Source: Massilia sp. Root351 (GTDB lineage Bacteria; Pseudomonadota; Gammaproteobacteria; Burkholderiales; Burkholderiaceae_D). Taken from it: 64,000 bases of DNA. The stretch covers positions 546,141 to 610,140 of the forward strand of contig NZ_LMDJ01000012.1 of assembly GCF_001425045.1 (NCBI RefSeq), written 5' to 3'. How positions within the stretch are numbered: the first letter of the stretch is position 1; every line of letters starts with the position of its first letter. Made by a program: the position numbers and the translations under genes. Below the pieces are notes generated by a model, which saw only the letters and a program-made list of their open reading frames with translations, did not search any database and was not told where the DNA came from. Positions 2,000 through 54,865 of the stretch are shown here, piece by piece.

Positions 2000-2036
2000 C
2001 CCCAGTGTGTCTTGCCCCCGAGGTCAGCCCCCGGCC

Positions 2037-3584
2037 TTACTCGGTTTGCGGGTTCACGCGCTCGATCTTGGAATGCAGCTTGTTCAGGCCGGACAGGTAA
2101 GCCTTGGCCGAGGCCACCACGATGTCCGGGTCCGAGCCGACGCCGTTGACGATGCGCCCGGCATTTGACAGCCGCATCGTCACCTCGCCCTGCGACTGGG
2201 TGCCGGTGCTGATGGCGTTGATGGAGAACAGCACCAGCTCGGCGCCCGATTTGGCCTGGCTCTCGATCGCGTTGACCATGGCGTCCACCGGCCCGTCGCC
2301 CTGCCCTTCGCAGCTGCGCTCCTTGCCGTCCATGGAGAACACCACCTTGGCGTGCGGCGTCTCGCCGGTTTCGGAGCGCTGCGCCAGCGACACGAAACGG
2401 TAGTACTCGTTTTCCTGCGCCACTTCCTCGTCCGCCACCAGCGCCATGATGTCTTCGTCGAAGATCTCGGACTTGCGGTCTGCCAGTTCCTTGAAGCGGC
2501 CGAAGGCGGCGTTGACCTCGGCTTCCGACTCCATCTCGATGCCCAGCTCCTGCAGCCGCTGCTTGAAGGCGTTGCGGCCGGACAGCTTGCCCAGCACAAT
2601 CTTGTTGGCGGTCCAGCCTACGTCCTCGGCGCGCATGATCTCATAGGTTTCGCGCGCCTTCAGGATGCCGTCCTGGTGAATGCCGGAGGCGTGCGCGAAA
2701 GCGTTGGCGCCCACCACGGCCTTGTTAGGCTGCACCGCGAAGCCGGTGATCTGCGACACCATCTTGGAGGCGGCAACGATCTGCGTGGTGTCGATGCCCA
2801 CCGTCAGGTTGTAATACGCCTGCCGGGTGCGCAGCGCCATCACCACCTCTTCCAGCGCGGTGTTGCCGGCCCGTTCGCCCAGGCCGTTGATGGTGCATTC
2901 GATCTGGCGCGCGCCGCCTATCATCACGCCGGCCAGCGAGTTGGCCACGGCCAGGCCCAGGTCATTGTGACAGTGCACCGACCACACGGCCTTGTCGGAA
3001 TTGGGAATGCGCTCGCGCAGGCGCTTGATGGTGGCGCCGAACATTTCCGGCACCGCGTAGCCTACCGTGTCGGGGAAGTTGATGGTGGTGGCGCCCTCGG
3101 CGATCACGCCCTCCAGCACGCGGCACAGGAAGTCCTCTTCCGAGCGGCTGCCGTCTTCCGGGCTGAATTCAATGTCGTCGGTGTGGTTGCGGGCGAAGCG
3201 CACGGCCAGTTTGGCCTGCTCCAGCACCTGCTCGGGCTCCATCCGCAGCTTCATCTGCATGTGCAGCGGCGAGGTGGCGATGAAGGTGTGGATGCGCTTG
3301 CGTTCGGCGGGCGCCAGCGCCTCGGCGGCCCGGGCGATGTCGCGGTCGTTGGCGCGCGACAGTGAACAGACGGTCGATTCGCGCACGTGGGAGGCGATGG
3401 CCTTGATGGATTCGAAATCGCCCTGCGAGGCGGCGGCGAAGCCGGCTTCGATCACGTCCACCTTCAGCCGCTCAAGCTGCTTGGCGATGCGCAACTTCTC
3501 TTCACGCGTCATGGACGCGCCGGGCGATTGCTCGCCGTCGCGCAGGGTGGTGTCGAAAATGATGAGGCGGTTGCTAAGGCTCAT
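2037..3584 (-). CDS. leuA: 2-isopropylmalate synthase
   Basis: A 515-residue LeuA. It condenses acetyl-CoA with 2-oxoisovalerate, the committed step of leucine synthesis. Visible features are the N-terminal [15 protein letters not shown] catalytic signature with the metal-binding Asp, the [13 protein letters not shown] metal site near residue 200, the [18 protein letters not shown] signature near 235, and a C-terminal regulatory domain (about 390-515) that normally binds leucine for feedback inhibition. AAGGAG precedes the start. It follows pssA after about 50 bp on the same strand, consistent with the ilv-pssA-leuA gene group of Burkholderiales. Confidence 0.97.
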
Positions 3585-16669: not shown

Positions 16670-17476
16670 ATGGCGCGTATCAGCTGGACTACGCTGTACC
16701 AGTACAAGGGTGAACTCGTCAGCGTGGCGATATTGGTCTGGGCCGCCGTGGCCTCCGCGCAGAGCGGCCCTGCTCCTGCCGCGGCGCCTGTCGCAGCCCC
16801 GCCCGGCAAGCACGCCGTCGCGCCCATCGCCCTGGAAAAGCCGCTGTGGAAAGACCTCACGCCCGCGCAGCAGCGCGCGCTGGAGCCGCTGTCGGCCGAG
16901 TGGAACAAACTGGAAGGCCTACGCAAGCAGAAATGGCTGGAAATCGCCAACCGCTTCGCCTCGATGAAGCCGGACGAGCAACAGCGCGTGCACGAACGCA
17001 TGCGCGACTGGCTGCGCCTGACGCCCGACCAGCGCCGCCAGGTGCGCGAGAACTTCGCCCGCACGCAGAAGATCACCCCGGGCCAGAAATCGGCCCAGTG
17101 GGAGCAGTACCAGCAGCTGCCGGAAGAGCAAAAGAAACAGCTGGCCGACAAGGCGCCCAAGAAACAGGTCGCCAATCCGCCCACGCCGACCCAGAGCAAA
17201 GCGCCGGTCGTGGCGCCGATCAAGGCCAAGCCGCCGGGCGCGGCATTGGTTCCGGGTACACCGGGCGCCGCCCCTGGCGCCACCGTGCCAGGCAGCGCCG
17301 GCAATGCCGGCAGCCCGGCAGCCGGCCTCGCGGCAGGCGGCAGCGCCGCGCAGATGCCCGGCGCATCCAACGTCGTGCCGGGCTCCATCCCGCCAGCCGC
17401 AGCGCCCGCCGCCGTCCCGGCAGCAGCCAGCGGCACCGCCCTGAACAGCCAGCCCGCATCCGCCAATGTCAAATAG
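16670..17476 (+). CDS. DUF3106 domain exported protein
   Basis: A 268-residue protein with an N-terminal hydrophobic signal (about residues 15-32, ending ASAQS), a DUF3106 core at about 50-160 made of charged helices (LTPAQQRALEPLSAEWNKLE, MRDWLRLTPDQRRQVRENF), and a long Pro/Ala/Gly-rich low-complexity tail from about 165. The LTPxQRxxVR style is periplasmic heavy-metal-sensor-like (CpxP/ZraP-like helices), but family function is unknown. It follows DUF3619 by 2 bp and overlaps the RDD gene by 11 bp. Confidence 0.85.
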   Translation: MARISWTTLYQYKGELVSVAILVWAAVASAQSGPAPAAAPVAAPPGKHAVAPIALEKPLWKDLTPAQQRALEPLSAEWNKLEGLRKQKWLEIANRFASMKPDEQQRVHERMRDWLRLTPDQRRQVRENFARTQKITPGQKSAQWEQYQQLPEEQKKQLADKAPKKQVANPPTPTQSKAPVVAPIKAKPPGAALVPGTPGAAPGATVPGSAGNAGSPAAGLAAGGSAAQMPGASNVVPGSIPPAAAPAAVPAAASGTALNSQPASANVK

Positions 17477-17999
17477 CGCCCTGCTCGACCAGCCCGCACC
17501 GACCGTCAAACGCCGCCTGATCTCCATGGTGTACGAGCTGCTGCTGGCGTTCGCGGCGCTGTTCCTGCCCTTCCTGATCTTTGAAATCGCCTCCGGCGCG
17601 TCGCACACGCAGACGGCCGAGCACATGCGCCAGATGCTGGCCTTCCTGGTGCTGGGCGCCTACTTTATCCACCAATGGGTGCGCCAAGGCCAGACCCTGG
17701 CCATGCGCACCTGGCGCATCAAGGTGGTGCTGCCGGGCCACGCCCACGTGCCGCCCAAGATCGCCGCGCTGCGCTATTTGCTGAGCTGGGGCTGGGTGCT
17801 GCCCGCGCTGCTGGTGAACTATGCCTTCAGCCTGAACCGCTGGCAAGCGCTGAACGCGATCGGCGTCGGCATCCTCGCCTGGTCGCTGACGGCCTTCCTC
17901 AGCAAGGACCGCCAGTTCCTGCACGACCGCCTCGCCGGCACCCGCCTGGTGCAGCTGCCTAAACCCGAGAAGAAAGCGGTTAGCGCTCAAGCAAGCTGA
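17466..17999 (+). CDS. RDD family membrane protein
   Basis: A 177-residue RDD protein. The family Arg-Asp-Asp pattern is spread: Arg in KRRLISMVYE near residue 15, and the Asp pair in FLHDRLAGTRLV near residue 155. Four hydrophobic segments are visible (about 20-40, 58-75, 100-118, 130-145). RDD proteins are inner-membrane proteins, some implicated in ion transport. Last gene of the sigma-DUF3619-DUF3106-RDD operon, overlapping DUF3106. Confidence 0.9.
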   Translation: MSNSALLDQPAPTVKRRLISMVYELLLAFAALFLPFLIFEIASGASHTQTAEHMRQMLAFLVLGAYFIHQWVRQGQTLAMRTWRIKVVLPGHAHVPPKIAALRYLLSWGWVLPALLVNYAFSLNRWQALNAIGVGILAWSLTAFLSKDRQFLHDRLAGTRLVQLPKPEKKAVSAQAS

Positions 18000-18048: not shown

Positions 18049-18645
18049 ATGCCCGTCGATGTCATTACGAATGAGTACGCTATCGGAACACTGAACGATG
18101 GCGACGGGGTGCTTCATACCCAATATATCGGGACCTGCACCGCGCTCGTTGGACGCGATGCCGTAAGCGGCACAGTTTTTCTCTGCCACCTGAACACCCC
18201 TCGCAGTATCCTTGCCCTGCCTGAACTTGTGGTCCAGCTGCGCGCGATGGGCCTGGATCTGTCCAACTTTCAGCTTTACAAACTCGGCGGCATCCATCCC
18301 ATGTATATGTGGCTAGGGTCGCTGCCAATGGCCGTGCTTGGCTGGCTTTGGGCACATGAACCTGGCTTCGCCGCGATCTGCGCGCTGCTGCCTTTTCTCT
18401 TTGCCCTGACTCGCCTTAGCCTGCGATATCAGTTGTGGCGTACGGGTGCATTCACACATCGTCCGCGCTCACTAGGATATTGCAGGAAAAGGCTCGGCTT
18501 GGGCAGGACCAGGGTGACGGTAGTGGCTTCGCGAAAAGACCTGGCGCCAAGAGTCGAGTCCTACGCGGACGATCCACGAGACGATGAATTCGCCACCTGG
18601 ACTTACAAGTGGACCAAAATGCGCAAGGCGGCAAACTCCGCCTGA
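18049..18645 (+). CDS. CheD-like domain membrane protein (unknown function)
   Basis: A 198-residue protein without a family I can name by overall identity. The first 85 residues resemble CheD: Thr24, Cys30 and His47 (TQYIGTC, then VFLCHL) keep the exact Thr(-6)/Cys/His(+17) spacing of the CheD glutamine-deamidase triad, followed by a helix (LPELVVQLRAMGLDLSN) and a KLGG turn like CheD's K-x-x-GGA. Residues about 88-125 form two hydrophobic segments, so unlike CheD it is membrane anchored, with a basic C-terminal tail. Two 60-bp blocks I counted at its start are 52 and 57 percent GC, below the neighbours, suggesting transfer. It is a single gene with a weak ribosome site. Confidence 0.6.
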   Translation: MPVDVITNEYAIGTLNDGDGVLHTQYIGTCTALVGRDAVSGTVFLCHLNTPRSILALPELVVQLRAMGLDLSNFQLYKLGGIHPMYMWLGSLPMAVLGWLWAHEPGFAAICALLPFLFALTRLSLRYQLWRTGAFTHRPRSLGYCRKRLGLGRTRVTVVASRKDLAPRVESYADDPRDDEFATWTYKWTKMRKAANSA

Positions 18646-18687: not shown

Positions 18688-19416
18688 TCAGAAGCGTTCG
18701 AAGCCCTGCAGGTAGCGCCACTCGCCGAGCGGCAGGCTGGACATGGCGATGCGGCCGATGCGGATGCGCTTCATGGCCACCACTTTCAAGCCCACCAGCT
18801 TGCACATGTGCTGGATCTGGCCCGGCTTGGGCGACTTCAGCGCGAAGCGCAGGCGCTGCTCGTTCTGCCAGCTGACCTTGATCGGCGGCAGCGGCTTGCC
18901 GTTGTACGGCAGGCCGTGGTTCAGCAGCGCCAGGCCGTTGTCGGCGATGCTGCCCTCCACTTCCACGATGATTTCCTGCTCCAGCCCTTCGCCCAGCTTG
19001 CGCGTGATGCGGAAGTCCTGCGTCAGCACCACCAGGCCGCTGGCCACGGTCTCCAGCGGCGATTCCAGCGACAGGTTGGCCAGGTGGCGCTTGAGGAAGC
19101 GTTCGCCGCGCGCGGACTCGGCGCGGGTGGCTTCGCTCAGCAGGCTGAACACCGGCGGGCCTTCCTTGTCGATGCCGGCGCTGATGCCGGGCGGCTTGTT
19201 GAGCAGGATGGTGACCGGGGCGATCTCCAGCAGCGTGGCGTCCTTGTCCAGCTCCACGGCCTGTTCCGGCGCCACGCGCGCGCCCGGCTCCTCGACCAGC
19301 ACGCCGTCCACGCGCACGAAGGCGCCTTCGATGTACAGCTCGGCCTCGCGGCGCGAGCATGGGAGCATGTCCGCCACGCGTTTGGCGAGGCGGATGGTGT
19401 TGTCTTGTTCGGTCAT
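18688..19416 (-). CDS. pseudouridine synthase-like protein (RsuA/RluF type), catalytic Asp replaced
   Basis: A 242-residue protein with an N-terminal S4 RNA-binding domain (LAKRVADMLPCSRREAELYI and VRVDGVLV, residues 10-60), followed by the synthase domain (LLNKPPGISAG at 71-81). Where the family has G-R-L-D with the essential Asp, this protein has SPLET, placing Glu122 at that position; the following SGLVVLTQD matches the family. Activity is therefore uncertain. The start at 19416 overlaps the ltaE stop by ATGA. The long upstream open frame is not coding. Confidence 0.8.
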   Translation of the reverse strand: MTEQDNTIRLAKRVADMLPCSRREAELYIEGAFVRVDGVLVEEPGARVAPEQAVELDKDATLLEIAPVTILLNKPPGISAGIDKEGPPVFSLLSEATRAESARGERFLKRHLANLSLESPLETVASGLVVLTQDFRITRKLGEGLEQEIIVEVEGSIADNGLALLNHGLPYNGKPLPPIKVSWQNEQRLRFALKSPKPGQIQHMCKLVGLKVVAMKRIRIGRIAMSSLPLGEWRYLQGFERF

Positions 19417-44681: not shown

Positions 44682-46865
44682 ATGCTGAAAAACCTGAAGA
44701 TCGCCACCCGCCTGGGTTTCGGCTTTGGCAGCGTCGTTTTGCTGCTGCTCATTTTGTCCATCATAAGTGTCCAGCGCCTGGGCACCATCAACGAAAGCAC
44801 GCGCGTCATCTACGAGGAACACTACGCCAAGGTAGTGCTGATCAACGGCGTGCTGACCAACAGCATGGACAACGCGCGCCAGATGCGCAACATCCTGCTC
44901 TCCACCAGCGATGCCGAAGTCGAAAAATACCGGCGCCTGGTCGATGCCAACCGCAGCGAAATGACGGACGGCCTGGGCAAGGTGCAAAAACTGCTGAGCA
45001 CGGACGCCGGCAAGCAGATGTACAAGAACATCATCGACAAGCGCGAACTGGTGGCCGCCAAGTACGAGCCCTTCTACGCGCTCGTGAAGAGCGACCGCAA
45101 AGCCGCCATCGACTTCCTGAAGACCGATTTCGTGCCCACCAACGACGTGTTCTGGGCCGCGCTGGAAGCGCTGGCCAAATCGCAGGGCGAGCTGATGGAC
45201 AAGGCCGCCAGCGAGGCCGCCGCCACCTACGAGTCGACCCGCACGCTGGTGATCGCGCTGGCGGCGCTGGCCATCATCCTGGCGGTGGCCATCGCGGCCT
45301 GGATCACGCTCAGCATCGTGCGCCCGATCCGGCAAGCGGTGCAGGTGGCCGAACGGCTCGAAGCGGGCGACTTGTCGATTGAAATCAACGACAGCTCCAA
45401 GGACGAAACCGGTCAGCTGCTGCGCGCCATGCGCAACCTGGTGGCCAAGCTGAACCAGGTGATTTCCGGCCAGAAGCGCGCCGTCGAGGCCGCCAACCGG
45501 GGCAACTTCGACAGCCGCATCGACCTGAACGGGCTGCAAGGCTTCCAGAAGGACTTGGGCGAAGGCCTGAACCAGCTGATGGTGACCACCGGCGCCAGCA
45601 TCGACGACGTGGTGCGCGTGATGGGCGCGCTGTCGGAAGGCGACCTGAGCAAGACCATCACCAAACCCTACGAGGGCGCGTTCGACGACCTGAAGCGCTA
45701 CGCCAACAACACGGTGGAGAAGCTGGGGCTGGTGATCGACGGCCAGCAGCGCGTGGTGGCGGCCGCCAACCGGGGCGACTTCCAGGCGCGCGTGGAACTG
45801 GCGGGGCTGCAAGGCTTCCAAAAGGAACTGGGCGAAGGCCTGAACCGCCTGATGGTGACCACCGGCGCCAGCATTGCCGACGTGGTGCGCGTGATGGGCG
45901 CGCTGGCGGACGGCGACCTGAGCAAGACGATCGACAAGCAGTACGAAGGCAGCTTTGCCGAGCTGAAGGAATACGCCAACAACACCATGGCCAAGCTGCT
46001 GCAGGTGGTGACGGAAGTCAATTCCGGCGCCCAGTCGCTGGCCAGCGCGTCCGAGCAAGTGAGCGCCACGGCGCAGGCGCTGTCGCAGGCTTCCAGCGAA
46101 CAGGCCGCCAGCGTGGAGGAAACCAGCGCCTCCATCGAGCAGATGACCTCCTCCATCGCCCAGAACACCGACAACGCCAAGGCCACCGACGGCATGGCGG
46201 CCAAGGCTTCGCAGGAAGCCAGCGAGGGCGGCGAGGCGGTGGACGCCACCGTGGCGGCCATGAAGCAGATCGCGCGCAAGATCGGCATCATCGACGATAT
46301 CGCCTACCAGACCAATCTGCTGGCGCTGAACGCGGCCATCGAGGCGGCGCGGGCCGGCGAGCACGGCAAGGGCTTCGCGGTGGTGGCGGCCGAAGTGCGC
46401 AAGCTGGCCGAGCGCAGCCAGGTGGCGGCGCAGGAGATCGGCGAAGTGGCCACCAGCAGCGTGGAACTGGCCGAGCGGGCCGGCGTGCTGCTGGAACAGA
46501 TGGTTCCCAACATCAAGAAGACGTCGGGACTGGTGCAGGAGATCGCCGCCGCGTCCGAGGAGCAGTCGGCCGGCGTGGCGCAGATCAACTCGGCGGTCAA
46601 CCAGCTCAGCCAGACCACGCAGCAGAATGCCAGCAGCTCGGAGGAGCTGGCCGCCACGGCCGAGGAGATGAGCAGCCAGGCCGAACAGCTGCAGCAGACC
46701 ATGGGCTTCTTCAAGGTGAACGCGGCGCCGCAGGCGCCGCGCCGGCAGGCCCAGGCGCCGATGCGCAAGCCGACCGCCGTCAAGATGGTGCGCAACCGCG
46801 ACCTGTACGCGTCGGCGGCGCCGGCCGGCGAAGAGCTCGACGAGGCCGAGTTCGTGCGATTCTGA
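44682..46865 (+). CDS. methyl-accepting chemotaxis protein with duplicated linker repeats
   Basis: A 727-residue chemoreceptor. Membrane helix 1 spans about 11-31, a four-helix periplasmic sensor 35-185, and helix 2 about 187-210. A HAMP domain (about 211-265) follows. Then two tandem 91-residue repeats (about 260-350 and 351-441, [15 protein letters not shown] and [15 protein letters not shown]) of HAMP-like character precede the signalling domain, whose hairpin tip is [24 protein letters not shown] near residue 545. The start is ATG 44682. Confidence 0.92.
45459..46004 (+). repeat. two tandem 273-bp coding repeats in the chemoreceptor
   Basis: Units 45459-45731 and 45732-46004, each 91 codons, are strongly similar in both DNA and protein (for example [20 protein letters not shown] against [20 protein letters not shown]). 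They encode extra HAMP-like modules between HAMP and the signalling domain, the product of an in-frame duplication. Confidence 0.85.
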
Positions 46866-53236: not shown

Positions 53237-54865
53237 CTAAGTCAGCCGCGCCAGTTCGCGCCCGGCCACCGCGCGCCGCGCATGCCGTCCCGGCAGCGCC
53301 GCGCCGGCCAGGCCGCCAGTCTGCGATTCGGACAATTTGAACACGCTGACCGACTGCGCCAGCTGCGCCGACTGCTCCTGCATGGCCGCTGCCGCAGCGG
53401 CAGCCTGCTCCACCAGCGCCGCATTCTGCTGCGTCACCTGGTCCATCTGCGTGATGGCGAAGTTGACCTGCTCGATGCCGACGCGCTGCTCCTCGCTGGC
53501 GTCCGCGATCTCGGTCATGATGCCGGACACCTTGGCAATGCTGGCGACGATATCGTCCATGGTGCGCCCCGCCTTGTCCACCAGTCCGGTGCCCGCCTCC
53601 ACCTGGTGCACCGAGGTGTCGATCAGCTGCTTGATTTCCTTGGCCGCCGAGGCGGAACGCTGCGCCAGCGTACGCACTTCGGACGCCACCACCGCGAAGC
53701 CCCGGCCCTGCTCACCGGCGCGCGCCGCTTCCACGGCCGCGTTCAGCGCCAGGATGTTGGTCTGGAAGGCGATCCCGTCGATGACGCTGATAATGTCGAC
53801 GATTTTGCGCGACGAATCGTTGATCGAGCCCATCGTCGCCACCACTTCCGACACCACCGCGCCGCCGTGGCTGGCGATCTCGGACGCCTCTACTGCCAGC
53901 TGGCAGGCCTGGCGCGCGTTCTCGGCGTTGATCTTGACGGTCGCCGTCAGCTGCTCCATCGAGGACGCCGTCTCCTCCAGCGAGCTGGCCTGTTCTTCGG
54001 TGCGGGCCGACAGGTCCAGGTTGCCGGCCGCGATTTCGCTCGACGCTTCAGCCATATTGTCGGTGCCGCCCCGCACCTGGCCGACAATATTGACCAGGTT
54101 GGTGTTCATATTCTTCAGCGCGTGCATCAGCTGGCCCGTTTCGTCATTGGACGCCACCACGATGTCGCTGGTCAGATCGCCGGCGGACACCGATTCGGCC
54201 ACCTTCACCGCTTCGCTGATCGGCCGCGTGATGGTGTGCGTGATGTACCAGGCAAAGCCCACCCCCAGCGCCACCGCGGCCAGGCCCAGCATGATGAGCA
54301 TATTGCGCCCGCTCTCATAACCCTGCTGGATTTTGGCCGCCATCTCGTCGAGCTGGCGCTTCTGCGTGTCGGCCAGCTTCTGCAGCGCGGCCAGGTAGAC
54401 GATGCGGTTGCGCTCCATGTCCTGCTCGAAGATGCGCTTGCCCAGTTCCAGGTCGCCGTCCGCCTTGGCCTTGAAGACCACCTTGCGCGCATCCACGTAG
54501 GCCTTGCGCGCCGCCAGGATGGCGGCGTGTTCAGCCTTGCCGTCCGGGTCCTGCAGGATGGTGCCGAGCGCGTCCTGCAATTCGGTGGCGCGGCCCGAGG
54601 CCTGTGCCATCTGCTGTTCAAAGCCTTTCTGGTCGGCCGCGTCCTGCACCTTCCAGGCGGCCGTGGTGCGGGCGGCGTTCACTTCCACCACCTTCTGCCA
54701 CTCGGCCACCATGCGCTCCACCCGCACGTGGTCGCGCAGCAGCGCGTCGGTCATGGCGCTGGCCTGTTGCATGCGCACGATGCCGACCAGGGTCAGCGCC
54801 GTCAGCAACAGCAGCACGACAGTGAAAGCCAATCCCAGCCGGACCCCGATCTTCAGATTCTTCAT
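53237..54865 (-). CDS. methyl-accepting chemotaxis protein
   Basis: A 542-residue receptor. Membrane helix 1 at about 11-30, a four-helix-bundle periplasmic sensor (35-185), helix 2 at about 190-212, HAMP to about 265, and the signalling domain whose tip is [27 protein letters not shown] near residue 380. GAGGAG precedes ATG 54865. The upstream frame is an unused open frame crossing tssA. It is downstream of tssA on the same strand, after 116 bp of AT-rich DNA that should hold its own promoter. Confidence 0.95.

Follow-up and report, generated by a model that had tools for sequence, protein, structure and literature searches.

A CheD-like catalytic half joined to a membrane segment in an orphan protein of Massilia sp. 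Root351: a putative membrane-tethered amidohydrolase

CheD is a soluble protein without membrane helices. What, then, is encoded by a gene that appears to join the catalytic half of CheD to a membrane segment and a basic tail? An initial annotation of the DNA had proposed a membrane-bound, CheD-like deamidase, possibly acting on chemoreceptors. The gene lies in a stretch of 64,000 nucleotides from Massilia sp. Root351, the whole of which is called the window here.

18049 to 18645, plus strand: orphan gene encoding 198 amino acids (an N-terminal half resembling CheD, then a membrane segment and a basic tail); 6 of 5,000 base shuffles leave the frame open, codon score the highest of the six frames

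By all appearances, this 198-codon frame is a genuine gene. Besides staying open so rarely when the bases are shuffled, it has a codon score that none of 5,000 shuffles equaled. The score is negative when ten neighboring genes serve as the standard, and the codon usage is thus unlike theirs. Composition deviates as well: GC content is 57.5% as against 66.0% for the whole window, and third-position GC is 64% as against 73 to 93% in the ten neighbors. This agrees with the annotated impression that the gene differs from its surroundings. Immediately upstream, a gene that encodes a small membrane protein (17466 to 17999, plus strand), which we take to be RDD, ends 49 bp before the orphan gene. The downstream neighbor, presumably pseudouridine synthase-like, is convergent, with its stop at 18688 on the minus strand. 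A consensus scan found no promoter-like site 5' of the orphan-gene start.

How good is the resemblance to CheD? It concerns the first part of the protein.

18049 to 18291, plus strand: CheD-like half, residues 1 to 81 (residues 9 to 81 aligned to PDB 2F9Z; residues 18 to 81 compared by hhalign with 56 CheDs)

The initial annotation had named Thermotoga CheD (PDB 2F9Z) as the target before any testing, so the score against this one structure is a fair single test. Residues 9 to 81 align to it with a score of 63 and two gaps; the aligned region begins at Glu-Tyr-Ala in the first strand and runs as far as the Gly-Gly turn. That score was reached by 0 of 5,000 shuffles and by 0 of 3,295 overlapping 90-residue translated tiles (real and spurious frames from 42 sources), the best of which scored 52. 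With hhalign against an alignment of 30 CheDs, Thr24, Cys30, His47, and the Gly-Gly turn fall in register and 0 of 300 shuffles did as well; the same count was obtained for residues 18 to 81 against 56 CheDs, the distinct sequences of a reference set of 61 loci. A HMMER profile of the CheD N-terminal half placed the orphan half 4th of 2,001 when ranked against shuffles. Pairwise comparisons with 30 natural CheDs were more uneven: for 11 of the 30, no more than 10 of 200 shuffles scored as well, and the other 19 did no better than the top 5% of shuffles. The best of them, to the CheD at locus L033, was equaled by 0 of 3,000 shuffles and corresponds to a BLASTP E value of 1.2e-4 within the 30-CheD set at sensitive settings. 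A stricter BLASTP run returned a single CheD, other than L033, at an E value of 4.7. At the sequence level, the N-terminal half resembles CheD more closely than chance allows, and its triad lines up with that of CheD.

Could the likeness nonetheless be an accident? Three results lean that way. Whole-CheD HMMER profiles gave nothing significant, ranking the N-terminal half 5th and the whole protein 28th of 854, or 9th and 38th of 1,002 with a second profile, in neither case above good shuffles. A phmmer search of the PDB (E values up to 10) found one unrelated chain and not 2F9Z. The spacing of the triad by itself arises in 153 of 20,000 shuffles of the orphan protein, so the bare motif is weak evidence, whereas the domain alignment is not. 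Against a target fixed beforehand, the shuffle and tile counts lead us to reject a chance resemblance, and an independent Pfam match to the same superfamily (PF14736, described below) also speaks against it; we consider it very improbable.

Even so, the protein departs from an ordinary CheD. Pfam model PF03975 for CheD (cut-off of 25 bits, E values up to 10) did not match it, and a search of the host genome with that model gave four CheDs above the cut-off and one weak match elsewhere, with the orphan gene not among them. The annotated label of CheD-like protein is supported, as sequence, for the N-terminal half. Is the gene a recent copy of a host CheD? This was rejected on two grounds. A protein search of its own genome (E values up to 10) returned the orphan gene alone, and the residue five places before the catalytic cysteine (C-5) is Thr in three of the host CheDs (L001 to L003) and Ala in the fourth (L004), while the orphan protein has Gln. 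L004 (G000:C23:518076-518378) is itself divergent, combining this Ala with a Pfam score (59.8 bits) below those of the other three host CheDs.

The three residues of the presumed active site are encoded as follows.

18118 to 18120, plus strand: Thr24 codon, matching CheD Thr21 and NTAN1 Ser69
18136 to 18138, plus strand: Cys30 codon (nucleophile position), matching CheD Cys27 and NTAN1 Cys75
18187 to 18189, plus strand: His47 codon, matching CheD His44 and NTAN1 His92

Thr21, Cys27, and His44 are given as the triad residues of CheD in PMC7022378. The alignment sets Thr24, Cys30, and His47 onto them with identical spacing (C-6 and C+17), confirming what the annotation had read from the sequence. 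How typical is this arrangement? The Cys-to-His distance of 17 places in the orphan protein (C, C+17) is the usual one, GSC-x16-H occurring in 55 of the 56 distinct CheDs. Thr at C-6, the Thermotoga spacing that the orphan protein also has, is found in 14 of the 56; Thr at C-5, where the orphan protein has Gln, is found in 98% of them. Likewise, 98% carry Lys three places before the Gly-Gly (GG-3), the place of Tyr77 in the orphan protein. The annotation had also claimed a match of the following helix and a K-x-GG turn. The helix and the Gly-Gly do align, and the lysine is one place off.

What about other members of the superfamily? The sole Pfam match of the orphan protein is the N-terminal asparagine amidohydrolase family (PF14736), with E values of 0.033 (whole protein) and 0.0069 (residues 1 to 90 alone). 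The corresponding scores, 13.8 and 16.0 bits, lie under the 24-bit cut-off, and the pairwise comparison with human NTAN1 is weak (85 of 2,000 shuffles as good). According to PMC7022378, human NTAN1 has the triad Ser69-Cys75-His92, in which Cys and His substitutions abolished activity. The same source names CheD as its closest structure by DALI (Z of 13.6) and assigns both proteins to the CNF1/YfiH-like cysteine hydrolase superfamily. A Tox-CNF domain of the CNF1/YfiH-like fold is described among polymorphic toxins (PMC3482391).

Beyond the CheD-like half, the protein turns hydrophobic and then basic.

18301 to 18423, plus strand: membrane segment, residues 85 to 125, with a weaker first helix (about 85 to 103) and a clear second helix (107 to 125)
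18424 to 18642, plus strand: C-terminal tail, residues 126 to 198 (residues 122 to 160 hold 10 Lys/Arg and no Asp/Glu)

Hydropathy averages 1.99 over residues 107 to 125. Since the twelve most hydrophobic 19-residue windows of the protein all begin at residue 95 or later, the first helix is judged the weaker, and of the two membrane helices annotated here it is the second that is clear. Strongly basic sequence follows the membrane segment, as expected on the cytoplasmic side, where we place it.

Where does this leave the catalytic half? If the second helix alone crossed the membrane, the tail would be cytoplasmic and the Cys-His half periplasmic, with an extracytoplasmic amide or ester as the target. 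The strong hydrophobicity of that one helix fits such a topology, as does the distribution of charge, with 4 Lys/Arg and 7 Asp/Glu in residues 1 to 85 and the basic part following the membrane. Thiol enzymes of the CheD/NTAN1 fold are normally cytoplasmic, however, and a low-confidence model of the whole protein has a separate helix (85 to 100) ahead of the clear one (106 to 131). We think a periplasmic catalytic half improbable and prefer a membrane hairpin with both ends in the cytoplasm. The model in question came from AlphaFold2 run without an alignment and had a mean pLDDT of 46; a second such model, of residues 1 to 87, had 55. The order of strands and helices in the whole-protein model fits CheD. 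Fold searches with both poor models gave no significant fold match and no CheD among the matches listed; with models of this quality, the result carries no weight either way.

Is the rest of CheD present in the tail? When residues 128 to 198 were compared with the CheD second half, 63 of 250 shuffles did as well by hhalign and the HMMER rank was 174 of 2,001. The CheD-like domain may therefore be incomplete, its second half being unrecognizable. In a MAFFT alignment with the 56 CheDs, the membrane stretch becomes an insertion and the tail falls under the last CheD strands (in nine CheD rows), with Thr-Arg-Val-Thr-Val-Val under a late strand, a placement that is suggestive and no more. A bolder reading takes it at face value: a CheD-fold domain would be split by the membrane hairpin after the Gly-Gly strand, the tail would supply the last strands, and the protein would be a membrane-face deamidase of a lineage not derived from the host CheDs. 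We hold this tentatively and think it rather unlikely.

How widespread is the gene? Relatives were sought in overlapping genome samples of the genus (74 genomes), family (392), order (399), and class (274). Aside from the gene itself, the genus protein search (E values up to 0.1) gave two short, weak matches, both outside the catalytic half; the family search and the order search, the latter with the first 90 residues (both at E values up to 0.01), gave three weak matches each; and the class search (E values up to 0.001) gave nothing further. Open reading frames at two weak-match loci (L006 and L012) showed nothing CheD-like by eye. Pattern scans of genome contigs and viral contigs, which require near-exact short stretches and which distant relatives would escape, yielded no confirmed relative, and a PF14736 search of 398 genomes of the phylum gave six weak matches, none above the cut-off. 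NCBIfam had no match to the protein. A phage, plasmid, or known defense gene is not supported: plasmids, phages, viral contigs, PHROGs, and PADLOC gave no hit. With no convincing relative in the collections searched, the gene counts as a one-genome orphan.

What do congeners carry at this place? We compared 24 congener loci centered on the upstream gene, and in 9 of them its downstream neighbor is conserved within the available stretch. The gap between the two genes measures 688 bp at the orphan locus. In six of the nine it is 28, 54, 83, 92, 147, or 191 bp, and in the other three 436, 551, or 1,184 bp. The seven congener gaps longer than 60 bp were searched with the orphan protein, the best result being 16 residues at an E value of 0.038, and among downstream open reading frames of at least 90 codons in the 24 loci the best match had an E value of 0.092. 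Given these gap sizes and the lack of a relative in the junctions, the orphan gene is an extra in a junction that accepts extras. In one congener (L061, about 2000 to 3180), the same junction carries a different extra frame of 392 codons, whose start resembles a secretion signal by eye. In two others (L050 and L063), the gaps after the upstream gene contain, by eye, inverted repeats like GGGGTCAG / CTGACCCC, perhaps small repeated elements.

The chief rival explanation is that the gene is a remnant or chimera in which the N-terminal half of a CheD was joined to unrelated membrane-coding DNA, encodes no enzyme, and has been retained in one genome by chance. The undetectable second half, the absence of a convincing relative among the 74 genus genomes, the low third-position GC with codon usage unlike the neighbors, and the lack of a promoter-like site all favor it. 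Two points speak against it: a frame of 198 codons seldom stays open when its bases are shuffled, and the catalytic three and the Gly-Gly turn are retained although general identity has fallen, unlike what free decay would leave behind. We regard a remnant as unlikely, though it deserves to be taken seriously, and return to a functional enzyme as the preferred reading.

Might that enzyme serve chemotaxis, as the initial annotation suggested? The window does hold the two chemoreceptors mentioned there, as receptor-domain matches at 46194 to 46676 and 53432 to 53902. These lie about 28 and 35 kb from the orphan gene, while each of the four host CheDs is 0.7 to 1.4 kb from a receptor-domain match. 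The host genome has 56 such matches, a number that includes fragments of the same gene. No chemotaxis genes were noticed by eye among the open reading frames at 12 to 25 kb of the window. Action on chemoreceptors is not supported. Two of the host CheD genes (G000:C36:266654-268169 and G000:C20:1418-3384) adjoin receptor domains of 88 and 121 bits, scores under most of the 56.

For Bacillus subtilis CheD, PMC3513319 describes a binding role that outweighs deamidation, with Met101-Phe102 at the binding interface. The orphan protein might similarly be a CheD-fold binding protein for a membrane partner (a chemoreceptor or a CheC-like protein), with catalysis minor. After the Gly-Gly, 2F9Z reads GGASMF, the Met-Phe of which probably corresponds to the B. 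subtilis pair, and the orphan protein reads GGIHPMY, with Met85-Tyr86 one place later. The distance of the receptors, the position of all four host CheDs beside a receptor, and the gene's surroundings count against such a role, which we find as improbable as the periplasmic topology; a receptor function through Met85-Tyr86 is possible but unsupported.

The best explanation, to which we give an even chance, is that the protein adopts the CheD/NTAN1/CNF1 fold and acts as a cysteine amidohydrolase, tethered by a hairpin to the cytoplasmic side of the inner membrane. The resemblance of residues 9 to 81 to CheD is beyond chance and the hydrophobic segment is present; fold, hairpin topology, catalysis, and substrate are what we infer from them. 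How would such an enzyme work? The cytoplasmic N-terminal half would bear the Thr24-Cys30-His47 triad, in which Thr24 would orient His47 and His47 would activate Cys30 for attack on an amide, either of a side chain or at an N terminus. The hairpin would keep these residues close to the membrane on its inner side, and the basic tail would likewise be cytoplasmic. The substrate would probably be a membrane or membrane-bound protein and not specifically a chemoreceptor.

Why does this matter? We know of no membrane-anchored member of the CheD/NTAN1/CNF1 deamidase fold, and among the entries listed from open-licence literature none describes a membrane CheD in its title or displayed abstract. If the proposal is true, a membrane-anchored member with no part in chemotaxis would imply that bacteria have recruited the fold for modifying membrane proteins, and such an amidohydrolase would pose a testable substrate question. 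Additionally, this one-genome orphan illustrates that a recognizable catalytic half can persist after the rest of a protein has become unrecognizable.

How, finally, does the protein compare with known systems? With CheD (PF03975; 2F9Z), residues 9 to 81 share the Glu-Tyr of the first strand, the Thr-Cys-His register, the helix, and the Gly-Gly turn. The differences are several. The orphan protein has Gly-Thr-Cys where CheD has Gly-Ser-Cys, lacks the Gly-Gly-Met-Asn that precedes the His in CheD, and carries Tyr in place of the Lys before the Gly-Gly. It also falls outside the CheD profile, and it has an unrecognized second half, a membrane segment, and no receptor nearby. With NTAN1 (PF14736; PDB 6A0E), it shares the C-6/C+17 spacing of the triad, Thr24 replacing Ser69 as in CheD, but it scores below the family cut-off and weakly in pairwise comparison. 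NTAN1 has a C-terminal specificity region with Ser254, Thr255, and Glu260. Through NTAN1 and CheD, and by the published placement of these two in one superfamily, the orphan protein would be linked to the CNF1/YfiH-like cysteine hydrolases.
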